A stretch of DNA of 42,345 nt from the NCBI GenBank assembly GCA_001780285.1, contig MFGN01000013.1, positions 1-42,345 of the forward strand, given 5' to 3'. The translations under genes and the position numbers were made by a program. Below, in pieces: positions 8,630 to 20,468 of this stretch. Positions within the stretch are counted from its first letter, which is position 1. Each line of letters begins with the position of its first letter. This stretch comes from Candidatus Falkowbacteria bacterium RIFOXYD12_FULL_34_57 (lineage in GTDB: Bacteria; Patescibacteriota; Patescibacteriia; Patescibacteriales; UBA12075). Under the pieces are notes generated by a model. The model saw nothing but the letters and a program-made list of their open reading frames with translations. It had not been told where the DNA came from and did not search any database.

Positions 8630-8658
8630 TTGACATTTTTAAAAATTAGATGTAATAT
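8630..8658 (+). promoter_or_regulatory. Sigma-70-type promoter P1 of the NAD operon
   Basis: Consensus -35 TTGACA (8630-8635), 17-base spacer, -10 TAATAT (8653-8658). The palindromic operator starts at the last base of the -10 and covers the expected transcription start. Confidence 0.8.
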
Positions 8659-8676
8659 AGTGTTATATATACACTA
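8658..8676. promoter_or_regulatory. Putative NrtR operator, copy 1
   Basis: TAGTGTTATATATACACTA: inverted arms TAGTGT/ACACTA around TATATAT. The identical 19-mer occurs at 17486-17504 in the same position relative to the -10 of the nrtR promoter. Binding at +1 would block transcription. Assignment to NrtR is an inference from this sharing and from the NAD genes downstream of both copies. Confidence 0.75.
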
Positions 8677-8703
8677 AGTATTTATTTTATGAATATTTTT
8701 TTA

Positions 8704-8732
8704 TTGACAAAATTTATATTTCGTGCTAATGT
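8704..8732 (+). promoter_or_regulatory. Possible second promoter P2 of the NAD operon
   Basis: TTGACA (8704-8709), 17-base spacer and a TGC-extended -10 TAATGT (8727-8732). It lies downstream of the operator, so it could give operator-independent basal expression. Confidence 0.45.
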
Positions 8733-8769
8733 GTAAAGATTTATTTTTAATAAATATTTATATTTTTGA

Positions 8770-8779
8770 TGTTCTTTAA
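8770..8779 (+). promoter_or_regulatory. TGTTCTTTAA leader element, copy 1
   Basis: TGTTCTTTAA just before AAAAAGGA and the start at 8801. Near-identical elements recur at 11307, 12244, 13896 and 15849, each in the leader of a gene in this operon. Function unknown. Confidence 0.5.
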
Positions 8780-8800
8780 GACAAAAAGGAAATATGCTTT

Positions 8801-9343
8801 ATGGAAAATAGAATTCAGGAAAAGTTTGATTTGATTTTTAATGAATTTCGTAAAAAAATTGCAAAAATTAAAAGCGATTTCGGAAAACATTCCCAAAACT
8901 GTAGTGTAATTGAAGAATATGACTTTGAGCAAGCGCTTGAGACATTAAAAAGGGATTGTTCTTCTCTTCTTGATGAAGTTAAACCGGAAATTCAAATACC
9001 TAAAGAATTATTGATTATAGGTGATGTAAAACAAAGCGGGATTAAAATTTTAATTATGGGAGATGTTCATCATGGAAGTTTGGTGCTGCCGCAGTCTTTA
9101 TATCCAGAAGACCAGCAGATTTTAGAGCATTTAGAGCATGATAAATTTCAGGAAATTATTACTCAGCTTCCACTGGTATTCCACGAAGAAATCCCATTAA
9201 GGATTTTGCCGGATGATTATTTTCAGAAGATTGAATGGCGAACAAAAATAAAGCCGGATAATTATCAAGCCACATTAAAAAGGCATAAGAAATTTCCTCC
9301 AGTTTTTTATAACAGCAGGAGATTTTTACAGAACAGAGGGTAA
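8801..9343 (+). CDS. First gene of NrtR-controlled operon, unknown soluble protein
   Basis: A 180-residue protein without signal peptide or membrane segment. The first 70 residues are helical and charged; the middle has alternating strands (ELLIIGDV, IKILIMGDVHHGSLVLP). The C-terminal part is basic with many aromatic residues. The GDVHHG piece superficially recalls metallophosphoesterase motifs, but the rest of that signature is missing, so I do not assign it. As the first gene behind the P1 promoter and operator it should respond to NAD status. The Shine-Dalgarno AAAAAGGA lies somewhat far from the ATG (about 11 bases). Confidence 0.65.
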   Translation: MENRIQEKFDLIFNEFRKKIAKIKSDFGKHSQNCSVIEEYDFEQALETLKRDCSSLLDEVKPEIQIPKELLIIGDVKQSGIKILIMGDVHHGSLVLPQSLYPEDQQILEHLEHDKFQEIITQLPLVFHEEIPLRILPDDYFQKIEWRTKIKPDNYQATLKRHKKFPPVFYNSRRFLQNRG

Positions 9344-9370
9344 GTTAAACTAAAAAACAAGGAGAGAGTC

Positions 9371-9589
9371 ATGAAGAAAGGGAATTGTGTCCGAGTTTAC
9401 ACGAATGATGGAGCAACACTTTATTTTACAGACAAAAAATATCCCGATCCGAAAAATCCGGAAAAATTTTTGTCAGCCACTGAAAAAGTGGAATCTATGA
9501 AATGTGAGATTGGGTCAGCCCTGGTCTTAAAAGTCGACGGTGAAACCAAAGAGTACGGAGTAGTCCAGCGTTTTATTGATATGCTTTAA
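9371..9589 (+). CDS. Small beta-rich protein, unknown
   Basis: A 72-residue protein with alternating hydrophobic and polar residues (CVRVYTNDGATLYFTDKK, SALVLKVDGETKEYGVV), suggesting a small beta barrel or SH3-like fold. No signal or membrane segment, and no family recognised. AAGGAGAG nine bases before ATG supports the start. It lies 27 bases after the preceding unknown gene in the same operon. Confidence 0.6.
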   Translation: MKKGNCVRVYTNDGATLYFTDKKYPDPKNPEKFLSATEKVESMKCEIGSALVLKVDGETKEYGVVQRFIDML

Positions 9590-9608
9590 ATGAATTGAAA
9601 AAATAAAA

Positions 9609-9672
9609 ATGCGAGGAAGTGGTAATACTTCCTCGCATCTAAAAAGTGTACATAAATATGCTTATGTGTACA
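9609..9672 (+). other. Intergenic double hairpin
   Basis: The first hairpin has perfect 12-bp arms ATGCGAGGAAGT (9609-9620) / ACTTCCTCGCAT (9627-9638) and a six-base loop. A second, imperfect hairpin pairs TGTACATAA (9647-9655) with TTATGTGTACA (9662-9672). The first has no U-run on the + strand, so it is not a standard terminator for this operon. Similar U-less hairpins recur after other genes of the operon (12169, 13825, 15783). Confidence 0.6.
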
Positions 9673-9738
9673 GTTTCTAGATTAATTTATTGAAATTTCT
9701 AAGAGTAGAGTTGTTTTATTAACGTAAATTATTATTTT

Positions 9739-11109
9739 ATGAAAAAAATAGCGCTTTTCGGAGGTAGTTTTAATCCGATTGGTACGCACCATATTAATAT
9801 TATCAAAGAGCTCGTCCGTGATTTTGACGAAGTGATTGTGGTGCTTTGCGGTCATCGTCCGGATAAGGCAACTACTAATGATATTGAGCCGATTCATAGA
9901 GCAATCATGGTAGATATCGCGCTGCGCGGACTTTCTTCAAAAGTAAAAGTTGATTATAGTGATCTGATACATGATATGTTTACCAGAACTCATAAACTTG
10001 ATAAAAAGTACAGCAAAGATGGAGAGGTATGGCATGTAGTGGGAATGGATCTGATTTATGGCGGCGCCAGAGGAGAATCTGAAATTCAGGCATCGTGGCA
10101 AAGAGGAAAAGAGCTTTGGTGTAATTTGAATTTTGCCGTTGTGGAGCGCGAGGGATATAAATTTAGTAAAGACGATCTGCCGCCTCATGCGATACTTATT
10201 AAACCCGATCATAGCGGCTCCAGTACAGAGATCAGAAATAATACTTTTAATCATAAATCTATTGATGGGTTAGTAACGTCGGAAGTAAAAAAATATATTG
10301 AAAAGTATAATTTGTATCGCGGGGTATTTCCGCAGCCGAAAGCCATGATGACCATAGAAGACCCTGGAATTAAGATTGTTTTAAATGAACGAGACGAGAA
10401 GGCTAGGAATTTGCGGGATAATTTAAAAAGATTAGTAGACGAAGATAATCCAAATTTAATCGTAGTCATCGGCGGAGACGGCACTATGCTGCGGGCAATT
10501 CGTAAATATTGGCAGCTGCGTTTGCCTTTTTTGGGGATAAATACGGGGCATAGAGGATATTTATTGAATGATGGCGATGTGTTTACATATAAAAATTTTG
10601 TGGTTTATCAATTGCCATTATTGCAAGTAGACACCAGAAGTGTAGACGGCAGATGGCGCCGCGATATTGGTTTCGCTGATGCTTGGCTGGAAAGAAGAGA
10701 GGGACAATCTGCCTGGATAGAGGTGGAAATGAATAATGGCAAAATAAAAAAATTAATTGGCGACGGAATATTAGTCTCTACTTCTGCCGGATCTACGGGG
10801 TATGCACGCAATATTTGTAAATTTTCCCTGCCACCCTATGCGCATCATCTGATACTTGCCGGCATGAATATTGCCGAACCGGTTAATTGGCGCGATACTA
10901 TTATCTCCCGTGATGCAACTATAAAATTAAAAAATTTAGATATTAAGAAAAGGCCCTTGCGGGGTTTTGTGGATGGAGTATTGATTGGAGAAGTAGAGAG
11001 GATGAATATAAAACAGAGCAGGATTGCGGCGGTAGAACTTGCCTTTGTTCCTGATTTGGATATCATAGAGAAACATTCCAGATTGAATATGCCGTATTTA
11101 TCATCTTAA
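9739..11109 (+). CDS. nadD-nadK: Bifunctional nicotinate-mononucleotide adenylyltransferase / NAD kinase (NadD-NadK fusion)
   Basis: Residues 1 to about 195 are a NadD-type nucleotidyltransferase: GGSFNP (8-13), a histidine at the HxGH position, GMD (102-104) with a downstream Trp, and SSTEIR (161-166). Residues from about 210 on are NAD kinase: GGDGTM (245-250), GINTGHRGYL (266-275) and the substrate loop in GDGILVSTSAGSTGYA (341-356). The fusion would turn NaMN into NaAD and, after NadE, NAD into NADP. The first catalytic segment reads GTHH (15-18) rather than HxGH: the second His is kept, the first is Gly. Separate nadD and nadK genes are the norm. The start has no Shine-Dalgarno. Confidence 0.88.
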   Translation: MKKIALFGGSFNPIGTHHINIIKELVRDFDEVIVVLCGHRPDKATTNDIEPIHRAIMVDIALRGLSSKVKVDYSDLIHDMFTRTHKLDKKYSKDGEVWHVVGMDLIYGGARGESEIQASWQRGKELWCNLNFAVVEREGYKFSKDDLPPHAILIKPDHSGSSTEIRNNTFNHKSIDGLVTSEVKKYIEKYNLYRGVFPQPKAMMTIEDPGIKIVLNERDEKARNLRDNLKRLVDEDNPNLIVVIGGDGTMLRAIRKYWQLRLPFLGINTGHRGYLLNDGDVFTYKNFVVYQLPLLQVDTRSVDGRWRRDIGFADAWLERREGQSAWIEVEMNNGKIKKLIGDGILVSTSAGSTGYARNICKFSLPPYAHHLILAGMNIAEPVNWRDTIISRDATIKLKNLDIKKRPLRGFVDGVLIGEVERMNIKQSRIAAVELAFVPDLDIIEKHSRLNMPYLSS

Positions 11110-11160
11110 CATAATAACATTTGAACATTTTAGCATTTGAACATTTAATTATTTTTCTAT

Positions 11161-11240
11161 GTAATCCTGAACACAGCGAAGGATCTCGTGAATAACAGTA
11201 TTCTTAGTTTAATGAAAATCTTCGCTCCGTTCAGAGTAAT
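11161..11240. repeat. Intergenic inverted repeat, TCCTGAAC...GTTCAGAG type
   Basis: The left arm (11161-11186, core CTGAACACAGCGAAGGATCT) and right arm (11217-11240, core ATCTTCGCTCCGTTCAG) are imperfect inverted copies. It resembles the larger stem-loops at 39061 and 40859 that begin TGTCATTCTGA. Such dispersed palindromes are common non-coding repeats. It is flanked by A/T-rich stretches repeating ACATTT/ATGTTA words. Confidence 0.55.
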
Positions 11241-11511
11241 AAAAGGTGAAAAGGTTAATAATATTTAGTGTTTATGTGTTAGCATGTTAATATGTTAAAA
11301 TGAGCTTGTTCTTTAAATTTTATTTTTTAAAGGAGAAAATAGAGACAGACATTAAAAGATATTGGGCTTTGGGAGTTGTTTTGTGAAACAAGCAACCCTT
11401 TTGAACGTGATCTATTGATCAAGTGTGTCATGGGGCTTCGCAGCGAAGATTTTTCCAGGGGATATGAAGTAATAAATTTTAACCTAAAATAACAAGGGGA
11501 GAATTGAGGAA
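11241..11511 (+). other. Long leader before small membrane protein genes; no gene seen
   Basis: The whole gap 11110-11511 is about 400 bases. This part contains TTGTTCTTTAAA (11306-11317) and a good Shine-Dalgarno AAAGGAG (about 11329-11335), but no start codon follows it at a usable distance. Further on are short inverted repeats, including TGATC/GATCA near 11409-11421 and CTTCGC/GCGAAG near 11436-11448. I find no ORF above about 20 codons. It may be a structured leader RNA or the remnant of a gene with the usual operon leader. Confidence 0.4.
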
Positions 11512-11820
11512 ATGATTGCTTTGGGTTTGATTATCGCAACAAAATGTTTGTTTGGCGCAATTTGTATTGTAATTTTTGATTTTCAAGAAAAGGCGGTTAA
11601 ATTTTTGGGGCTATGGCTTGTTGCCGCAATTTGTTCTTTAAAGTTTTTTCTGATAACAGCCGTATTTTTTCCGATTATTGTGTTTGGAGCTTATGCTCTT
11701 ATAAATTCTTTGAAAAATGAAAAAATTAAAAAGTTTATTGATTTTGTAAATACCGTGATTCACAAAAAAGAATCATTTATTCAAAAAATAAATACTGTTA
11801 TGGAGCGGATTCGCAGTTAA
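11512..11820 (+). CDS. Small membrane protein 1 of the NAD operon, unknown
   Basis: A 102-residue protein with a hydrophobic first two thirds (about residues 2-22 and 29-65, two or three membrane segments) and a basic, amphipathic C-terminal helix (about 68-102). I recognise no transporter family; NiaP, PnuC and ECF S-components are longer and differ. The purine-rich stretch GGGGAGAATTGAGGAA precedes the ATG. It is the first of three tiny membrane genes directly before pncB, so a role in uptake of the pyridine precursor or in sensing is conceivable but untested. Confidence 0.65.
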   Translation: MIALGLIIATKCLFGAICIVIFDFQEKAVKFLGLWLVAAICSLKFFLITAVFFPIIVFGAYALINSLKNEKIKKFIDFVNTVIHKKESFIQKINTVMERIRS

Positions 11821-11896
11821 TGCAGATCCGAATAATCATTAACCCCTAACCCCCAACCTGTAATTTTTACTTTTAACCGTTTTAAAGGAGGAAAAA

Positions 11897-12154
11897 ATGC
11901 CTGATTTTTCTTTAATCCCAATTAATTTGTACATTGGTGTATTCTCTCTTTTGCTTGCTGTGTTTTTTTACGTGGCAGCTGTTAAATCGGAATTTTTAAG
12001 ATGGTTCGGCATTGCTGCCGGTATCGGGCTGTCTATGTGTTTTATCAGTATAGTGTCCGTTGTCGGCGCTTATGTGCCTATTATCGGGTTTTACCTGATC
12101 TGGGCATTGCACATGATGAATCTTAAAGGAAGGCTTTTCGCCGTTAAGAGCTGA
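11897..12154 (+). CDS. Small membrane protein 2 of the NAD operon, unknown
   Basis: An 85-residue protein, almost wholly hydrophobic, with about three membrane segments (residues 8-28, 35-55 and 57-75), a polar N-terminus and a basic C-terminal tail. No family recognised. The strong Shine-Dalgarno AAAGGAGG sits seven bases before the ATG. It follows the preceding membrane gene by 76 bases; that gap has no hairpin of the type seen elsewhere in the operon. Confidence 0.65.
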   Translation: MPDFSLIPINLYIGVFSLLLAVFFYVAAVKSEFLRWFGIAAGIGLSMCFISIVSVVGAYVPIIGFYLIWALHMMNLKGRLFAVKS

Positions 12155-12168
12155 TTTGTTAAAATCAA

Positions 12169-12260
12169 GGGCAAAGAAAAATCTTTGCCCTCATTAATAG
12201 AGTTTCTCAAATTTTTTTGGGTAACTGTAATAATGCAAAATATTTGTTCTTCACATTAAA
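12169..12260 (+). other. Intergenic module: hairpin plus TGTTCTT element
   Basis: Perfect 9-bp stem GGGCAAAGA (12169-12177) / TCTTTGCCC (12182-12190) with an AAAA loop starts 14 bases after the upstream stop. It is followed by TCATTAATAGAGTTT instead of a U-run. A TGTTCTT element (12244-12250) lies further on before AAGGAG and the next start. The same order recurs at 13825-13906 and 15783-15860. Confidence 0.6.
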
Positions 12261-12294
12261 ATTTTAATATTTAATTTCAACAAGGAGAAAAAAG

Positions 12295-12564
12295 ATGTTT
12301 AAATTATTTTTGGTTATGGTTTTGTTGTTTGGCAACCTGGTAATGCCCTTTATTGTTTGGGAGCATAAAAAATATTTTATTATCGGTTCTGTTATAGCAT
12401 GCGCCATTTTTCTTCACTGGGCGCTTTCTTTGTTTATTTTAGCGTATTTTGGATTTTGTTACGGCATGCTGAAGATTAAAAAAATCAATAATTTGGTTTC
12501 CAGAATAAAAGAAGTGTTTACTGGTTTTAGAAAAGAATATAAAAAGGGAGGAGAATTAAAATGA
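12295..12564 (+). CDS. Small membrane protein 3 of the NAD operon, unknown
   Basis: An 89-residue protein with hydrophobic segments at about residues 3-20 and 27-62 and a strongly basic C-terminal tail (KKINNLVSRIKEVFTGFRK and on), which by the positive-inside rule should face the cytoplasm. CAAGGAGAA precedes the start. Its stop overlaps the pncB start (ATGA), so its translation is coupled to nicotinate phosphoribosyltransferase. That coupling is the best hint that it works with PncB, but no function can be assigned. Confidence 0.7.
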   Translation: MFKLFLVMVLLFGNLVMPFIVWEHKKYFIIGSVIACAIFLHWALSLFILAYFGFCYGMLKIKKINNLVSRIKEVFTGFRKEYKKGGELK

Positions 12565-13802
12565 TAAAAAACAAAAGCAAGCGGGTAATAAATTCTCTTC
12601 TTGATTTGGATCTGTATAAGTTGACCATGTGTCAATTAGCATTTCTGTTTTTTAGAAATATCCCCGTGGTATTTGGATTTACCAACAGAACAAAAACTAT
12701 AAAGCTGACCAGGCATATCAAGAAAAATGATTTGCTCACAGAGTTTGGCTATATTTCCGGGTTAAGGTTCAGAGATGATGAGCTGGATTATTTGCGCAAT
12801 CTGGAGATTATGGGTATTCGTATTTTTAGGGAATCATTTTTGGGATTTTTAAAAAATCTTCAGCTGTCCGGTTTAAACATCGAAGATGACGGAGAAAGTT
12901 ATAAGATTACTGCTCAAGGTTCGTGGCCGGAAGTAACTCTTTGGGAAACTTTGATTTTAAGCGTGGTGAATGAACTTTACTATCGTCGGATTTTACAGAA
13001 GATGAGCAGGGCAGAAAGAAAAGATTTGTTTGCGGAAGGGCAAAGACGCCTGGAAGAAAAGATTAAAATTCTTAAAAAAAATCCGCATATTGTTTTTTCT
13101 GAATTCGGCACCAGAAGAAGATTTTCCGGTGAATGGCAGGAATATATTGTAAAAAGATTAGCCCAAGCAGTACCATGTCAACTGGCCGGTACTTCCAATG
13201 TTTATCTGGCGAAAAAATTGGGGTTAAAACCAATTGGCACTTTCGCCCATGAAATGTTCATGGTCTTTTCCGGTATTTTTCATGAAAATGATGATGATAT
13301 CCTGAAATCTCATAATAAAGTATTGCAGTATTGGAAGAAATTATACAAAAATGTGTTGCTGATTGTTTTGACTGATACTTACGGCAGCGATTTCTTTTTT
13401 CGCGATATGACCCTGGAGCAGGCCGGGGAATGGGCTGGTTTGCGCCACGATTCCGGTGACCCGGTTGAGTTCGGAGAAAAAGCCATTAAGTTTTATCAGG
13501 ACAAAGGCATTGATCCGCGGGATAAGATTATTGTTTTCAGCGACGGTTTGGATATTGAAACGATTGTTAAGCTGGCCAATCATTTTCAGGGAAGAATCAA
13601 GGTAACTTTCGGTTGGGGCACCAACCTTACCAATGATCTTGGCTTGAAAAGCCTTTCTTTGGTGGTAAAGGCTGTTAAATCCAACGGACATGACACAGTA
13701 AAGCTTTCTGATAACATAGCTAAAGCTATCGGCAGAGAAGTGGAAAGATTTAAAATAATTTTTAGCTATAAGGTTGAGTTTTCGGAGGAGTGTAAATATT
13801 AA
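12561..13802 (+). CDS. pncB: Nicotinate phosphoribosyltransferase
   Basis: A 413-residue cytoplasmic enzyme joining nicotinate and PRPP to nicotinate mononucleotide with ATP hydrolysis, the entry step of the Preiss-Handler route. The N-terminal LLDLDLYKLTM matches the PncB opening motif. Downstream are TSNVYLAKKLGLKPIGTFAHE (the His of the AHE segment is the usual phosphorylated position), LTDTYGSDFFF, GLRHDSGDP and the phosphate-binding end FGWGTNLTND. The length is usual for bacterial PncB. A Shine-Dalgarno (AAAGGGAGGAG) lies inside the upstream gene, and the start overlaps its stop. It is flanked by membrane genes upstream and the clpX-like gene downstream. Confidence 0.93.
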   Translation: MIKNKSKRVINSLLDLDLYKLTMCQLAFLFFRNIPVVFGFTNRTKTIKLTRHIKKNDLLTEFGYISGLRFRDDELDYLRNLEIMGIRIFRESFLGFLKNLQLSGLNIEDDGESYKITAQGSWPEVTLWETLILSVVNELYYRRILQKMSRAERKDLFAEGQRRLEEKIKILKKNPHIVFSEFGTRRRFSGEWQEYIVKRLAQAVPCQLAGTSNVYLAKKLGLKPIGTFAHEMFMVFSGIFHENDDDILKSHNKVLQYWKKLYKNVLLIVLTDTYGSDFFFRDMTLEQAGEWAGLRHDSGDPVEFGEKAIKFYQDKGIDPRDKIIVFSDGLDIETIVKLANHFQGRIKVTFGWGTNLTNDLGLKSLSLVVKAVKSNGHDTVKLSDNIAKAIGREVERFKIIFSYKVEFSEECKY

Positions 13803-13824
13803 TATTTTATAATTTCAATAAAAA

Positions 13825-13906
13825 GGGGCAGGAATAATTCTCGCTCCCATTACTAGAGTTATGTATTAGTTAAATAAATAATTCTAGAAATGAAATGTTC
13901 TTTAAA
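13825..13906 (+). other. Intergenic module: hairpin plus TGTTCTTTAAA element
   Basis: Imperfect hairpin GGGGCAGGAA (13825-13834) / TTCTCGCTCCC (13838-13848), followed by ATTACTAGAGTT and then by GAAATGTTCTTTAAA (13892-13906) before the Shine-Dalgarno of the clpX-like gene. The layout parallels 12169-12260 and 15783-15860. Confidence 0.6.
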
Positions 13907-13941
13907 TCAATATTTATTTTATACAATCAGGAGGAATTAAA

Positions 13942-15768
13942 ATGATTGAAAATGGACGGCTTGTTCAAACAATTATCGCTTCTCAGGGATATAAAAGATC
14001 CTTAATTACTACAGAGGGTGATAAATCTTTTATCGACAGTTTTAATTTGCGTCCTTCAGAGGTGGTGGATTACTTGAATGAATGGATAATCGGGCAGGAA
14101 AAAGCCAAGTGGACGCTGGCTACTAAAATTTGCAGCCACTTAAACGGTATTCGCCATGAAATGGAATTGGGACTTGATCCTATGGATAATGACGAGAGGG
14201 TTAAGTCCAATATTCTTCTTATCGGGCCGACTGGTTCGGGCAAGACTTATGTTATGCGCAAAACTGCTAAAAAATTCGGTATTCCTTTTGTAAAAGCAGA
14301 TGCTACCAAGTTTTCTGAAACCGGATATGTAGGCAGAAATGTCGATGAAATAATCAGGGATCTTTTTAAGAATGCTTTAAGTTTGGTGCAAAAAGATTCT
14401 GAATATAAAAATTTGAAGCTGGAAGAGCAGGAGGATAAAGCTGTAGAATTAGCGCAGTACGGCATTGTTTTTATCGATGAATTCGATAAATTAGCAGAAA
14501 GAAAAGGTTTTTTTGGGGGTGATGTTTCCCGCGGCGGAGTGCAAAGAGGACTCTTGACTCTGACCGAAGAAACAGATGTGCCAATTATTGATACGCAAAA
14601 TCCCATGGAGGCTATCAAAATAGCAATGGCCGTCCAAACTGGACAGAAAATAAAAAATAGAATGATTAACACCAGAAATATTATCTTTATTTTTTCCGGA
14701 GTTTTTGCCGGTTTGCAAGACATTATCCAGAAAAGAAATGATCAGAAAAAAATAGGCTTTGGCGCTGATTTTCATTGTAAATCAAAAGAAACAAACAAAC
14801 TGTGGGATGATTTGATTGCCGAAGATCTGATGAATTTCGGCATTGAAGGGGAGCTTGTCGGCCGGATACCGGTCAGGGTGGTTCTTGATAGATTGAGCGA
14901 AGATGATTTGTTTCAGATTTTGAAAAATCCTAAATCATCCATAGTTTTAAATTTGAAAAATTCTATGGCTGGTTATGGCATCAAGGTGGATTTTGGCGAT
15001 GATATTTTGTGCTATGCTGCTAAGCTGGCTTATAAGCAAAATACCGGAGCGCGCGGACTGGTGTCGGCTTTTGATGGCATTTTTCAAAAGTTTGAAGCAT
15101 ATCTGCCCGATATACCAATTAATTATTTAATGGTGACAAAAGAATTAATCAATTTGAAAGACAAGAAGGAATTTTTAAATACCCTTAATAAAGAGCTGGA
15201 AAAAGCGGATTTGATTTTGGAAAAAGATCATGTAGCGGCTTATCAAAAATATCTTTTAAAAAGATGGAAAGTTGCTTTGGATTTTTCTCCAGGGGCGATT
15301 AATGCTCTTAAGGTTATGGCAGATAGTGATGGAATTACCCCTTGTAAGAAGTGTCAAAGAATGTTTTTGAAAGAAGAAGAAAGGATAGCGTATTATAGCA
15401 AAAGAGGAATCCGGCGATATTTGCTTGATAAAGAATTCCTGAATGATGTTTCAAAATGTTTGGTCGCCAATATTATCAAGCAGATGAATAATATTCAACA
15501 TGCCAAAGAAGAGCGTGTCTGGCGTTACAAAAAAATAATCAAGGAAAAATATGACATAACCCTTAAAACTTCCGGGGATTTTGTTAAGGAGATAAGCCGT
15601 ATGGCAATTATAGCCATGAAAACTCCTTTTGAGATTTGTGAAGAGATTTTTAGAGATTATGACGGCGCTTTTCATTCTTTGAGGGGCAAAGAGCTGTTGA
15701 TAGAAGAGAAAGATATTGAAGATATTTCAGGATTTTTTACCAGAAAGATAATAGAAAATAAATATTAA
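13942..15768 (+). CDS. ClpX-like AAA+ unfoldase with long C-terminal extension
   Basis: Residues about 36-395 are a ClpX-type AAA+ module: IIGQEKAK (49-56), Walker A GPTGSGKT (95-102), pore loop GYVGR (128-132), Walker B GIVFIDEFD (174-182), ClpX-like FSGVFAGLQDII, an IGF tripeptide (271-273) and sensor-2 GARG (369-372). In ClpX the IGF loop docks onto ClpP, so partnership with the ClpP-like gene downstream is plausible. The N-terminal zinc-binding domain of ClpX is missing. In its place are about 35 unrelated residues, and a roughly 200-residue C-terminal extension (608 in total versus about 420) carries a CKKC pair. CAGGAGG supports the start. Probably a specialised paralogue rather than housekeeping ClpX. 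Confidence 0.85.
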   Translation: MIENGRLVQTIIASQGYKRSLITTEGDKSFIDSFNLRPSEVVDYLNEWIIGQEKAKWTLATKICSHLNGIRHEMELGLDPMDNDERVKSNILLIGPTGSGKTYVMRKTAKKFGIPFVKADATKFSETGYVGRNVDEIIRDLFKNALSLVQKDSEYKNLKLEEQEDKAVELAQYGIVFIDEFDKLAERKGFFGGDVSRGGVQRGLLTLTEETDVPIIDTQNPMEAIKIAMAVQTGQKIKNRMINTRNIIFIFSGVFAGLQDIIQKRNDQKKIGFGADFHCKSKETNKLWDDLIAEDLMNFGIEGELVGRIPVRVVLDRLSEDDLFQILKNPKSSIVLNLKNSMAGYGIKVDFGDDILCYAAKLAYKQNTGARGLVSAFDGIFQKFEAYLPDIPINYLMVTKELINLKDKKEFLNTLNKELEKADLILEKDHVAAYQKYLLKRWKVALDFSPGAINALKVMADSDGITPCKKCQRMFLKEEERIAYYSKRGIRRYLLDKEFLNDVSKCLVANIIKQMNNIQHAKEERVWRYKKIIKEKYDITLKTSGDFVKEISRMAIIAMKTPFEICEEIFRDYDGAFHSLRGKELLIEEKDIEDISGFFTRKIIENKY

Positions 15769-15782
15769 TATTTTAAAAATAT

Positions 15783-15860
15783 GGCGGAAAATTTTTCCGC
15801 CCATTAATACGGTTGCTTAGACTCATTTAGGCAATCGTATTAATGAAATGTTCTTATAAA
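15783..15860 (+). other. Intergenic module: two hairpins plus TGTTCTTATAAA element
   Basis: The first hairpin is GGCGGAAAA (15783-15791) / TTTTCCGCC (15793-15801), followed by CATTAATACGGTT. The second pairs ATACGgTTGC (15807-15816) with GCAAtCGTAT (15831-15840). Then comes AATGAAATGTTCTTATAAA before the Shine-Dalgarno GGGG of the radical SAM gene. The layout parallels the two preceding modules. Confidence 0.6.
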
Positions 15861-15897
15861 TTTAAATAAACAAAAAAATAAAAAGGGGAAATTGCAC

Positions 15898-16830
15898 ATG
15901 AATATATTAATGACCGATGGTCTTTTTAAAGCTTTGTCTTTTTCTATTATGCTTAGTACGAATACTGGATGCAATGCCAGATGCAAATCTTGTATTTCAC
16001 GGATTACGCCCAGCGTAAAAAGCATAGACATTAAATTATGCTCTATTCCCAGAGTAGAATTAGGACTTAGAACCGCAAAACACCATAGAGCCACACACGC
16101 CATTTTGACAGGCAAGGCCGACCCAACCCAAGAAGATGACGGTTATCTTTTAGAGCTTACAAAATTATCCCGAAAATATTTATTGTATGTTGATATGCAT
16201 ACTAATGGATTTTTGCTGCAAAAAGGTAAAAAAAAAGAAGGTTTGCTTAAAGATTTAACCAAAGCCGGGCTTACTCATATTACCTTTTCGATTGCCTCTT
16301 TTAGTGCACAGGAGAATCTAAATTTTATGGGCATTAAACAAAACCCAAAAGAATTGATTCAAAAAGCGCATGAATTGGAGTTGTATACCCGCTGTTCTCT
16401 TCTGCTTACAAGCAGCACTGTTTATAATGCGCAAGGAATAATGGATTATATTTATAAAGCCGGAGCGAATGGCGCCGATGCCGTGGTAATTCGCGAGTTA
16501 TGGATACCTGATAGCTATAATCAGAAAAGCACAGAAATCTTTGAGTGGAACAAAAAAAATTTTGTTGACATGAATCCATTGATCGCAGAGTTCGAGGCAA
16601 TATCGGAAAATAAAGATAATGAATACGGAATTAGAAGATTGCGCGACCTGCCATGGGGCGTGCCGGTATTTTCTATGCGAAATATTTTTTCTGATGCAGA
16701 GCATGGGGTAAATGTAACATTCGCCCGTTGCGATGATTCTGTAAATGATGTGATTATCAAGTCGATAGTACACAAGCCAAACGGCCATGGATACCGGAAT
16801 TGGGATGATAACGGGGATAGCCTGTATTAG
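15898..16830 (+). CDS. Radical SAM protein, MoaA-like core, unknown substrate
   Basis: A 310-residue protein with the 4Fe-4S/SAM signature CNARCKSC (Cys25, Cys29, Cys32). Further on, LTGKADPTQ sits where the GGE-type SAM motif is expected, and DMHTNGFLL resembles strand beta-4 of the fold. The C-terminal part lacks an obvious second cluster (SPASM) motif. Such enzymes cleave SAM to a 5'-deoxyadenosyl radical; what this one modifies is unknown. ATG 15898 is preferred over TTG 15892 because AAAAGGGG sits about 10 bases upstream. The gene lies between the ClpX-like and ClpP-like genes, with the Shine-Dalgarno of the next gene overlapping its stop codon. Confidence 0.8.
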   Translation: MNILMTDGLFKALSFSIMLSTNTGCNARCKSCISRITPSVKSIDIKLCSIPRVELGLRTAKHHRATHAILTGKADPTQEDDGYLLELTKLSRKYLLYVDMHTNGFLLQKGKKKEGLLKDLTKAGLTHITFSIASFSAQENLNFMGIKQNPKELIQKAHELELYTRCSLLLTSSTVYNAQGIMDYIYKAGANGADAVVIRELWIPDSYNQKSTEIFEWNKKNFVDMNPLIAEFEAISENKDNEYGIRRLRDLPWGVPVFSMRNIFSDAEHGVNVTFARCDDSVNDVIIKSIVHKPNGHGYRNWDDNGDSLY

Positions 16831-16841
16831 GAGAAATCGCA

Positions 16842-17406
16842 ATGCAGAGAAAACATAGTTTGTTTATAAAAAAAGGAAAAGACAAGAATGTTTATACTTT
16901 GTTTCTAGGGCATTTAAGGGGTGATGATCGGGAGATTCACAATATAGTGTATAATTTGCACCAAGCTAAAAGCAGTGATGTTTTACAAATCAGAATTAGC
17001 TCCTCGGGCGGTTTTGTTAACCACATGTTGGCTATTATAAATGTTATTTATGATAAATTTTATGGTAGAATTATAACTTATATTGAAAAAGAAGCTTGTT
17101 CTGCGGCCGGAAATTTTTTTACATGGAAAGATTAGAATTATTTATCCTATGTCCCAAATTCATTTTCATTTTATAGAAAAACCCAAAGAAATTAACGAAA
17201 GCTATATTTTTAAAAAAGAGATATGGAAGAATTTTTTTGATAATTTTTTATCTTCGTATTTTTCTAAAGATGAACTACAAAAAATATATAACGGTGAAGA
17301 ATATAATTTTGATGCTTGTGAGATGTGTAGGCGCGGCATAGCTACGCATATTATGGCGGAGGGCAAAAGAATAGACGCAAAAAAATTTAAAAGTATAGGA
17401 AAATAA
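16842..17406 (+). pseudogene. ClpP-like serine peptidase, frame broken at a T7 run
   Basis: Two overlapping frames encode one ClpP-like protein of about 187 residues. The first (16842-17135) has the substrate-strand motif LQIRISSSGGFV and the likely nucleophile in ACSAAG (Ser87). The second continues with YPMSQIHFHF (likely catalytic His, second of the HFH pair) up to 17406. They join exactly if the T7 run at 17114-17120 has one T fewer. This is either a sequencing or assembly indel, a real inactivating mutation, or slippage-dependent expression. The expected Asp region (GEEYNFDACE) has Glu at the nearest position, so the triad is uncertain. AGGAG precedes the start, and a terminator follows. 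Confidence 0.75.
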
Positions 17407-17413
17407 ATAAGTC

Positions 17414-17440
17414 AAAAGACGGGATAATCTCGTCTTTTTT
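17414..17440 (+). terminator. Rho-independent terminator closing the first NAD operon
   Basis: Stem AAAAGACG / CGTCTTTT with inner GAT/ATC pairing (17414-17436), followed by Ts to 17440. It lies just before the nrtR promoter. Confidence 0.8.
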
Positions 17441-17458
17441 GCTTTTTGGGATAAGGAC

Positions 17459-17486
17459 TTGACAAAATTTTTATAACAGGTATAAT
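17459..17486 (+). promoter_or_regulatory. Sigma-70-type promoter of nrtR-prs-nadE
   Basis: Consensus -35 TTGACA (17459-17464), 16-base spacer and perfect -10 TATAAT (17481-17486). The palindromic operator begins at the last base of the -10, as at 8658. Confidence 0.85.
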
Positions 17487-17506
17487 AGTGTTATATATAC
17501 ACTATT
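17484..17506. promoter_or_regulatory. Putative NrtR operator, copy 2
   Basis: AATAGTGT (17484-17491) and ACACTATT (17499-17506) form perfect 8-bp arms around TATATAT. The core 19-mer (17486-17504) is identical to that at 8658-8676. The site overlaps -10/+1 of the nrtR promoter, which implies autoregulation. Confidence 0.8.
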
Positions 17507-17576: not shown

Positions 17577-18254
17577 ATGGAAGACATAAAACAAAAATAT
17601 GAACATGCGGTTATTGCTACAGATGTGGTTATTTTTCGAGCAGAAGAAAATGACCTGCAGGTTTTGCTTATTAAAATGAAGAAAAAACCTTTTTTTGATA
17701 TGTGGGCTACCCCCGGAGGATTGGTAAAAGGCGATGAATCGATAGATATAGCCGCCAAAAGAAATCTATTTGATAAAACCGGAGTAAAAAATGTTTATTT
17801 GGAACAATTATATGCTTTTGGGGAAGTTGATCGGGATCCTTTTGGCCGGGTCGTGTCTGTGGCTTATTTCGCCCTGCTTCCACAAGGTATAAAGTTGCAT
17901 CTTAAAACTACTGAAGAACATGGTGATGTGGGATGGTTTTCCGTGGATGGATTGCCGGTCTTGGCTTATGATCATAAGAAAATTATTGAAATGGCGCTGA
18001 ACAGACTTCGCGCCAAGCTGGCATATACTAATATTGTTTATAGTTTATTGCCGGATGAATTTACTTTGACTGATTTGCAGAAAATTTATGAGTTGATTCT
18101 TGATAAGAGGCAGGATAAAAGAAATTTCCGTAAAAAGATATTGTCTTTGAAAATGATTAAAAAAACCGGCGGGAAAACAACGGGGGGGGCATACCGTCCG
18201 GCAGAATTGTATAAATTTATTAAAAAGAATCCGGAGATTGTACAGATTTTATAA
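17577..18254 (+). CDS. nrtR: NrtR-type transcriptional regulator (Nudix-like sensor plus winged helix)
   Basis: A 225-residue protein: a Nudix-fold domain (about residues 8-145) then a winged-helix domain (about 150-225, with LTDLQKIYELILDKR and a basic GGKTTGGAYRPAELY end). The Nudix box at 48-70 keeps Gly48, Glu54, Arg62 and Gly69, but the metal-binding REuxEE core reads RNLFDK, so hydrolase activity is unlikely. This fits NrtR repressors, which sense ADP-ribose-type NAD metabolites and control NAD genes. It heads an operon with prs and nadE and lies behind its own palindromic operator. A mini-ORF (ATGCGGATATAA, 17551-17562) with upstream GGAG sits in the leader. No Shine-Dalgarno precedes the nrtR ATG. 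Confidence 0.88.
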   Translation: MEDIKQKYEHAVIATDVVIFRAEENDLQVLLIKMKKKPFFDMWATPGGLVKGDESIDIAAKRNLFDKTGVKNVYLEQLYAFGEVDRDPFGRVVSVAYFALLPQGIKLHLKTTEEHGDVGWFSVDGLPVLAYDHKKIIEMALNRLRAKLAYTNIVYSLLPDEFTLTDLQKIYELILDKRQDKRNFRKKILSLKMIKKTGGKTTGGAYRPAELYKFIKKNPEIVQIL

Positions 18255-18411
18255 ATTTTTATTTATAGCGAAAAGATTTTTCTTTTTTTTAAATTTTGAT
18301 AGTGTAATAAACACACAAACAAAATGGGATAATCTGGACAGAAAATTAAAAATATGTTAGAAATATATGAAAATCAGAACATTAAAAATTAAATATAAAG
18401 GAGAAAAGGCG

Positions 18412-19476
18412 ATGTTTGATTGGAAGAAAAAATTTAAAGAATTCATATTTTCTTTTTTAAAAGAAGAGCTTGATACCTTAAGTGAGGATGAACTTCGGCT
18501 TATTCGTGATTCATCCGATAAAATTTTAGGCAATAGATTGGTTCATTCCCCTAAGCCGGTTTTATTTTATCATCATACTTATGAAAAATTAGCCGCTTTG
18601 ATTGCTGAAGACGACAGGATAGAATTAGGCAATATTCATTGGGATAAATTTTCTGACAAGTGGCCCAGTTTACAGATAGAAGATAACGAAAATATCAGGA
18701 AAAAAGTAAAGGGGCGCGATGTAGTGTTTTTAGCTTCGTTTTTGCCGGAAAATTTATTTGAGCAAATGGCAATAATTTATGCCTTGCCCAGATACCAGGC
18801 CGATAGTTTTAGAATAGTACTTCCCTATTTTCCTGTGGGTACCATGGAAAGAGTGGGAGAAGGAAAAGAAGGAGAAATCGCGACCGCTATGACTATGTTT
18901 AGAATGTTGTCGGCTACGCCGCAATGCCATGGAAAAGGCCCGGCGCTTTTGACGATTTTTGATGTTCATGCGCTGCAGGAAAGATTTTATCCTTCTGATA
19001 ACATTATTCCCGATCTGCATTCCACCGTTTCGCTTTTGAAGAATAGAATTAGGAGCATGAAAAATATAGCAATAGTTTTTCCTGATGACGGCGCGCGCAA
19101 AAGATATGGTGATTATTTCAGGGATTATCCGATTATCGTCTGCAACAAGGTGAAGATCGGGAAAAAGAAAATTATCACCATCAAAGAAGGCAATTCTTGC
19201 GGTAAGCACTGCATAATGGTTGATGATTTAATATTTACAGGAGGAACTTTAATGGAATGCCGCGACGTCCTGATAAAAGCCGGAGCAAAAAAAATCAGCG
19301 CTTACGCAGCGCATGGTATATTTCCGGAAGAATCATGGAAAAAATTTACTAAAGAATTATTTGAATACGTTTGGATTACGGATAGTTGTCCCTGGATGGT
19401 GGATATTGTCAAGGACATAAAACCTTTCGAGATTTTGTCTATTAAAGATTTAATCGTTAATGTGATTACTAATTAA
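18412..19476 (+). CDS. prs: Ribose-phosphate pyrophosphokinase, plant class II-like
   Basis: Makes PRPP from ribose 5-phosphate and ATP, supplying the co-substrate of PncB. Diagnostic pieces are YFPVGTMERVGEGKEGEIAT, the ATP-site segment FDVHALQERFYPSDN, PDDGARKRY and the PRPP loop VDDLIFTGGTL. From memory, the YFP-GTMER and DxHALQERFYF wording recalls plant class II (phosphate-independent) PRPP synthases rather than typical bacterial Prs. ATG 18412 is chosen over 18367 because AAAGGAG (18397-18403) lies eight bases upstream; this gives 354 residues. It sits between nrtR and nadE (14-base gap), in the operator-controlled operon. Confidence 0.85.
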   Translation: MFDWKKKFKEFIFSFLKEELDTLSEDELRLIRDSSDKILGNRLVHSPKPVLFYHHTYEKLAALIAEDDRIELGNIHWDKFSDKWPSLQIEDNENIRKKVKGRDVVFLASFLPENLFEQMAIIYALPRYQADSFRIVLPYFPVGTMERVGEGKEGEIATAMTMFRMLSATPQCHGKGPALLTIFDVHALQERFYPSDNIIPDLHSTVSLLKNRIRSMKNIAIVFPDDGARKRYGDYFRDYPIIVCNKVKIGKKKIITIKEGNSCGKHCIMVDDLIFTGGTLMECRDVLIKAGAKKISAYAAHGIFPEESWKKFTKELFEYVWITDSCPWMVDIVKDIKPFEILSIKDLIVNVITN

Positions 19477-19490
19477 ATAAAGGAAAAAAT

Positions 19491-20468
19491 ATGTTTAAAA
19501 AACAGATGAATCAAGTTTTAAGCGCTTATAAGAAAAGAGCCAGGGAAATGGCCGGCGGATGTGAAAAAGTTTTTGTAGCCGGCTCCGGCGGAGTCGATTC
19601 TTCTTTAGTGGCAGCCATACTTACATCTGAATTTGATCCGGATAATGTAGTGGTCCTTTTTAGGAATCTTCAATCTGATCCGAAACATTTAAAAGATATA
19701 ACGGATTTGCAAAAAGCTCTTGGTTTCCACTTGATTTATATAGACATGGAATCAGGGTACAAAGACGGAATAAGGCAATGCGCGGAGCAATTTGAAGAGT
19801 CTGGGCTTCTTTGGTTTACCGAAGAAGAATGCCTTAGCGGCGGTTTGCCTGAAATCAATGCTTATGCATCGCTACGATCTCGCTTTATTACCCCTTGGGC
19901 CGGGTTCATATCCAAGATGATAGATGGCGGCGGCGGAAGGATTTACGGAACAGGCAACGCCGAAGAAGACGGATTACTGCGGTATTTTGACAAATTCGGC
20001 GACGGCGCTGTCGATAATAATATTTTAGACGGCCTTACCAAGTGCGAAGTGCGCCAATTTCTTCTTTATTTCGCAAAGCTTTATCCTGGTCATGATGTTT
20101 TTCGGCGCATTGCGGAGAAAACCCCTTCGGCTGACCTGCAGGGAAACGGGGATCGGCACAATGATGAAGACGAACTTACTTCATGGGCGCACAAAAGAGG
20201 ATATGACAGATTGTTTTTGTCTTATGGCGATACGAAACAAGAAGGCAATATCGCCTGGGCACTGAAAAAAGACATGGAATTCGGCGTTATTACCGGAAAA
20301 AGAAGAGATTGGAGTAAGGATAGGCTTAAAAAAGAATTTAGATTTTCCGAAGAAGAGCTGCAATTGATATTGTTTATCCGCGAAGAAGAATTGAAAACCC
20401 GCCATAAAGTTTTGAGGCCGCCGGGTTTTTGCAGGGAAATTTTGAGAAAAATAAATTTAGTTGATTAA
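19491..20468 (+). CDS. nadE: NAD synthetase (ammonia-dependent type)
   Basis: A 325-residue ATP-pyrophosphatase-fold enzyme that amidates nicotinate adenine dinucleotide to NAD in the cytoplasm. It shows the P-loop GSGGVDSS (31-38), IYGTGNAEEDG, FGDGAVDNN, LTKCEVRQF and the PSADL segment, all hallmarks of NadE. There is no glutaminase domain, so ammonia, or glutaminase in trans, is the likely nitrogen source. It is somewhat longer than short NadE proteins (about 275) owing to the C-terminal region. An AAAGGA Shine-Dalgarno precedes the ATG. It is the last gene of nrtR-prs-nadE, with a terminator following. Confidence 0.9.
   Translation: MFKKQMNQVLSAYKKRAREMAGGCEKVFVAGSGGVDSSLVAAILTSEFDPDNVVVLFRNLQSDPKHLKDITDLQKALGFHLIYIDMESGYKDGIRQCAEQFEESGLLWFTEEECLSGGLPEINAYASLRSRFITPWAGFISKMIDGGGGRIYGTGNAEEDGLLRYFDKFGDGAVDNNILDGLTKCEVRQFLLYFAKLYPGHDVFRRIAEKTPSADLQGNGDRHNDEDELTSWAHKRGYDRLFLSYGDTKQEGNIAWALKKDMEFGVITGKRRDWSKDRLKKEFRFSEEELQLILFIREEELKTRHKVLRPPGFCREILRKINLVD

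Follow-up and report, generated by a model that had tools for sequence, protein, structure and literature searches.

We describe two identical 19-bp palindromes in the genome of Candidatus Falkowbacteria bacterium RIFOXYD12_FULL_34_57 (1.6 Mb, 37 contigs) that are very probably the operators of an NrtR-family repressor, encoded at 17577-18254, which controls the salvage of nicotinamide adenine dinucleotide (NAD). Both palindromes and the predicted repressor gene lie in a 42,345-nt stretch of contig MFGN01000013.1 (the window, to which coordinates refer unless another contig or locus is named; every window feature given here is on the plus strand). The source bacterium is tiny and largely auxotrophic, and salvages vitamin B3 for NAD. 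It is a member of the Patescibacteria, or Candidate Phyla Radiation (CPR), as judged by its closest named relatives (Buchananbacteria, Collierbacteria). CPR bacteria are without most pathways for making cofactors, and their gene regulation is poorly studied. On the sequence evidence presented here, these elements form an NrtR regulon for NAD salvage that is conserved within a little-known bacterial group and has a DNA code in common with a sugar regulator.

Two identical putative operators overlap the promoters of NAD genes

The palindrome, TAGTGTTATATATACACTA, is present as an exact match at 8658-8676 (operator A) and again at 17486-17504 (operator B). Its 6-bp arms, TAGTGT/ACACTA, are symmetric and its 7-bp A/T spacer is asymmetric. 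When up to three mismatches are allowed, these two copies are still the only matches in the window, where 0.02 would be expected. The first base of each operator is also the final base of a sigma70 -10 box. Promoter A (8630-8658) has the -35 element TTGACA at 8630-8635 and, at 17-bp spacing, the -10 element TAATAT at 8653-8658, and equivalent placement of the operator is seen in relatives. Promoter B (17459-17486), the sole 12/12 match within the region scanned, pairs TTGACA at 17459-17464 with TATAAT at 17481-17486 at 16-bp spacing. Just ahead of it, a terminator-like hairpin at 17414-17438 closes the first operon.

The operon below operator A contains a NadD-NadK fusion gene (9739-11109; PF01467 and PF01513, and NCBIfam) and pncB, which encodes nicotinate phosphoribosyltransferase (NAPRTase; 12561-13802; PF04095, PF17767, and TIGR01514 above cut-off). 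Operator B is followed by nrtR (17577-18254), coding for a repressor with a Nudix-like domain and a winged helix (NUDIX PF00293 and NrtR_WHD PF21906, above cut-off), by prs for ribose-phosphate diphosphokinase (18367-19476; PF13793, and TIGR01251 above cut-off) and by nadE (19491-20468), the sole NAD synthetase found genome-wide. NadD-NadK, PncB, Prs and NadE, together with a nicotinamidase-like protein, are predicted to constitute a complete Preiss-Handler salvage route. The targets would convert nicotinamide through nicotinate, nicotinate mononucleotide and nicotinate adenine dinucleotide to NAD and then NADP, with phosphoribosyl pyrophosphate (PRPP) supplied by Prs. Quinolinate phosphoribosyltransferase was not found in the 1.6-Mb genome, and the NAPRTase family is present in 5 of the 111 genomes examined from the order.

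An earlier note on this DNA had reported the two copies, their start on the last -10 base and the presence of pncB/nadD-nadK genes after one copy and nrtR-prs-nadE after the other. All three observations hold, the last by family matches. Its proposal of a single NrtR repressor is well supported by the conservation, promoter placement and helix identity described below.

Across the whole genome, a scan for TAGTGTTATATATACACTA at up to three mismatches returned three further places, of which one (C5:10564) is of promoter type. An exact GTGT-W7-ACAC core is present four times in 1.6 Mb, with about 0.9 expected from the base composition of the window. Three of the four are in NAD-gene promoters (A, B and C5). 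The palindrome is therefore not widely scattered ahead of unrelated genes, a pattern that the earlier note had named as speaking against its proposal. The fourth place, C20:22305, is inside an RNase J-like open reading frame (ORF; identity read by eye), and we rejected it as an operator and regard it as a chance occurrence.

The C5 site lies on a TTGACA-17-TAATAT promoter 153 bp ahead of an isochorismatase-family (nicotinamidase-like) gene, after which come kinase-like, VWA-like and PurA-like genes. The same trio, in the same order, directly follows nrtR in a relative (G056). The kinase and VWA labels are taken from relatives and from motifs read by eye, as neither protein has a Pfam match here. 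A weaker site, operator C (TAGTGTAATAAACACACAA; 18300-18318), lies between nrtR and prs. With these additional sites ahead of prs and of the C5 nicotinamidase-like gene, the predicted regulon is wider than the earlier note held. Regulon members were counted only where the promoter site keeps an intact core. One-mismatch sites were not counted because they are mostly inside ORFs, without a GTGT core or from genomes that lack nrtR, and because a reversed-pattern control is about as frequent.

These placements suggest a mechanism in which an NrtR dimer would read GTGT in each half-site and span the DNA from the last base or bases of the -10 box to beyond the start site, thereby excluding RNA polymerase. 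Bound at operator A it would repress the nadDK/pncB operon, and bound at operator B its own gene together with prs-nadE, with operator C adding weaker control ahead of prs. The unlinked C5 operon that starts with the nicotinamidase-like gene would be repressed in the same way. The site downstream of nrtR may let prs-nadE be controlled separately. DNA binding would be altered by a small molecule that signals NAD status and binds the catalytically dead Nudix domain.

The palindrome is conserved beside nrtR across the class

We surveyed nrtR in 111 genomes of the order, where 9 have the gene, and in 381 sampled genomes of the class, where 43 do. The operator was examined at 34 class nrtR loci, in a zone reaching up to 250 bp upstream or up to 200 bp downstream of the gene. 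GTGT-N7-ACAC is found beside nrtR at 28 of these 34 loci (27 upstream, 14 just downstream), compared with 0.18 in dinucleotide shuffles. The palindrome is thus kept ahead of nrtR in related genomes, which is the conservation that the earlier note had looked to, and operator C is the window counterpart of the downstream sites. A sigma70 promoter, counted at up to three mismatches, accompanies 19 of the 30 upstream sites. In 17 of the 30 the -10 box has its last base on operator base 1 or 2, and the operator/-10 arrangement is thus kept across families.

The neighbours of nrtR in the class are repeatedly NAD genes, including pncB, nadD(K), nadE, pnuC-nadR and the gene for ADP-ribosylglycohydrolase (ARH). 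Sites distant from nrtR in relatives precede ARH-nadD in G004, nadD in G007 and, in G003, an operon that includes a NadM-like gene; the remaining one-mismatch matches in relatives are mostly within ORFs or lack the core.

Some loci of relatives have further features. Most sites that lie downstream of nrtR have a T-rich tract before them, and at L133:9861-10062 (the gene also labelled L105) nrtR is followed by three tandem copies of the operator, each after an identical T-rich tract. At L142:3664-6126 (G003), a gene for an 821-aa CN_hydrolase-NadE-NadD triple fusion adjoins a perfect NrtR site. PP2C phosphatase, large kinase-like, isochorismatase-like and VWA-like proteins are linked to nrtR at L137:9548-18407, L133, L083 and L084. 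In L137 this set is followed by pncB, prs and nadE, and it resembles a signalling triad within an NAD operon.

The predicted repressor shares its DNA code with a sugar regulator

The window NrtR has the recognition helix DKRNFRK, the same seven residues as positions 178-184 of AraR from Bacteroides thetaiotaomicron (BtAraR; PDB 5bs6, 5dd4, 5ddg, 5deq; PMC4666351). In the BtAraR-DNA crystal structure, Lys179, Arg180, Asn181, Lys184 and the wing define GTGT (PMC4666351). The tested BtAraR sites AGTGTATTTGATACACC and AGTGTAAAAAAGACACT have the GTGT-N7-ACAC core that is seen here, and the protein covers 25 bp of DNA (PMC4666351). Wing residue Lys204 of BtAraR is Tyr in the window NrtR. All 34 class proteins have DKRNF, and none of the 22 loci in other groups whose helix differs has the site (Fisher p 2e-10, uncorrected for shared ancestry). 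Among loci of other groups whose proteins retain DKRNF, 4 of 17 have a site beside the gene, and therefore the helix alone does not set the position of the site. One palindrome may define a regulon that is readable across a class and is tied to its repressor through a DNA code known at residue level from a crystal structure.

The Nudix signature REUXEE is replaced by RNLFDK in the window NrtR, with loss of the catalytic glutamates, as in other NrtR regulators (PMC4666351). The protein scores 164.8 bits against NCBIfam NF050029 (the ADPR-responsive repressor NtrR, an equivalog), under the curated cut-off of 400, and we assign it as a family relative and not as that equivalog. Residues Arg41, Asn43 and Arg98, through which SoNrtR contacts ADP-ribose, align with Met34, Lys36 and Phe89. 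In the arabinose pocket, Arg34 of BtAraR is replaced by Met, and Arg86 and the pocket His (His131 in BtAraR) are kept, so the window NrtR retains two of the three arabinose-binding residues. Because the ADP-ribose contacts are mostly changed and the arabinose Arg34 is replaced, the effector cannot be read from the sequence, and the earlier note goes beyond it in calling the regulon NAD-responsive. ADP-ribosylglycohydrolases recur within the nrtR/NAD operons of relatives, a recurrence compatible with, but no proof of, an ADP-ribose signal.

Alternative explanations

The protein could instead be a pentose-responsive regulator of the AraR/XylR type that lies beside NAD genes by chance and uses the palindromes as its operators, its signal being a sugar or pentose phosphate, for example one tied to PRPP supply. 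This explanation would account for BtAraR being the closest solved sequence, with its shared recognition helix and its matching operator core, for the AraR_C match of the window NrtR in Pfam, for the presence of prs in the regulon and for the retention of Arg86 and the pocket His. We nevertheless consider it improbable, because the neighbours of nrtR in the class are repeatedly genes of NAD metabolism (pncB, nadD, nadK, nadE, ARH, pnuC-nadR), no pentose pathway genes were seen among them and the pocket lacks Arg34. BtAraR responds to L-arabinose and regulates genes for pentoses, whereas the neighbours and targets here are NAD genes; a shared DNA code does not make the window NrtR an arabinose regulator.

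It is very unlikely that a different regulator, or a nucleoid or host protein, binds the palindrome and that the vicinity of nrtR is coincidental. Some nrtR loci have no site, as such a binder would allow, but across the class the sites track nrtR, they are absent beside relatives with other helices and the helix matches that of a solved GTGT reader. That the 19-mers arose by chance or as a mobile repeat in an A/T-rich genome, without a regulatory role, is scarcely credible, because the A/T-rich spacer and -10-like composition to which this idea appeals account neither for two copies against the window expectation given above nor for the recurrent -10 placement in many genomes.

Several observations do weigh against control by NrtR as proposed here. 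In the PDB the arabinose regulator BtAraR matches the protein better than SoNrtR does and is its best match, and 6 of the 34 class nrtR loci have no exact core site beside the gene. Operator C has a mismatch in one arm, and one-mismatch matches in the genome number 5 compared with 4 for the reversed pattern; because that control is almost as frequent, the case for operator C is made by its position and by the downstream sites of relatives. Finally, a possible second promoter, TTGACA-17-TAATGT with a TG extension (8704-8732), lies downstream of operator A, beyond the cover of an NrtR dimer bound there. Similar arrangements follow the sites in G004 and G006. Such a promoter would give basal expression independent of NrtR.

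Relation to known regulators

Characterized NrtR repressors (SoNrtR, PDB 3gz5/3gz6; MsNrtR, PMC6800001; Streptococcus suis NrtR) have in common with the window protein a Nudix-like domain with a broken signature, a winged helix, NAD-gene neighbours, a palindromic operator and likely autorepression. The operator differs, being GTGT-N7-ACAC here compared with GTTTTCGA-N7-TCGAAAAC in Mycobacterium and an A/T-rich site in streptococci (PMC6800001). The targets differ too, as they serve nicotinate and nicotinamide salvage in an organism that lacks quinolinate phosphoribosyltransferase. NiaR and NadR have the same physiological role, repressing NAD synthesis and salvage genes (PMC6800001), but their protein architecture is unrelated and nothing here suggests that either binds this palindrome. 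Among the papers searched, none names NrtR together with the Candidate Phyla Radiation, which is no proof of absence. The same helix and operator code serves sugar control in Bacteroides and, by the evidence presented here, NAD control in this group, which makes a change of effector within the family open to direct test.

Reach of the regulon

The earlier note had placed all the unknown genes from 8801 to 17406 in the regulon, and this stands for only one of them, the radical-SAM gene (15892-16830). This gene has relatives in 7 other class genomes, and in 8 of 8 genomes, the present one included, it is located among NAD genes, with nrtR, nadDK, pncB, prs, NadE and ADP-ribosylglycohydrolase as neighbours, and nrtR is present in 6 of the 8 radical-SAM genomes compared with 43 of 381 overall (p 4e-5). 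The clusters of relatives therefore provide independent evidence that supports its membership of the NAD regulon. The protein retains a CX3CX2C motif and, at its C terminus, an HGYRxWD block. Its weak resemblance to MoaA and viperin may serve as a lead only, and its structural model has a mean pLDDT (predicted local distance difference test score) of 64.5.

The claim as a whole is partly supported, as only the direction of transcription links the other unknown genes to the regulon, and operon continuity across 8801-17406 is inferred. The first gene past operator A, a 180-aa ORF at 8801-9343 without a family match, was rejected as a conserved NAD gene because a search of the class gave no genuine relative. 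Direction is also what links three small hydrophobic (membrane) ORFs (11512-11820, 11897-12154 and 12295-12564) to the regulon. The Clp-like pair, a ClpX/HslU-like ATPase with an extra C-terminal half (13942-15768) and a ClpP-like gene in two frames (16842-17406), was absent from the NAD clusters that we read in close relatives. A 403-bp gap at 11110-11511 interrupts the gene series and leaves room for another promoter.

We tentatively suggest, as a possibility that we hold to be somewhat against the odds, that NrtR in these Patescibacteria also governs conserved uncharacterized modules beyond NAD salvage, which would yield, use or recycle an unknown pyridine-nucleotide product. The modules would be the MoaA/viperin-like radical-SAM protein and the kinase/VWA/PurA-like or PP2C/kinase/VWA-like sets beside nicotinamidase-like genes. 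The palindrome may in this way serve as a tag for uncharacterized genes linked to NAD.

Other features of the first operon

A 72-aa uncharacterized ORF is present at 9371-9589. The ClpX/HslU-like ATPase matches phrog_4339, a group of phage proteins of uncharacterized function. A phage origin was rejected, as no relative of nrtR was confirmed in viral contigs and the radical-SAM protein has no match in phage records. The ClpX-like query likewise gave no match against viral contigs, and phage matches to nadDK are partial and below 35% identity. The ClpP-like gene is broken at a T7 run (about 17114-17120), where sequencing error, slippage and decay are indistinguishable from the sequence; a canonical ClpP is encoded on contig C9. 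Within the gap at 11110-11511 lies an inverted repeat of REP-like type (CTGAACACAGCGAAGGAT ... ATCTTCGCTCCGTTCAG). In the NadD-NadK fusion, the NadD half carries GTHH in place of the canonical HxGH, and its relatives keep xxHH (GTHH, CRHH).

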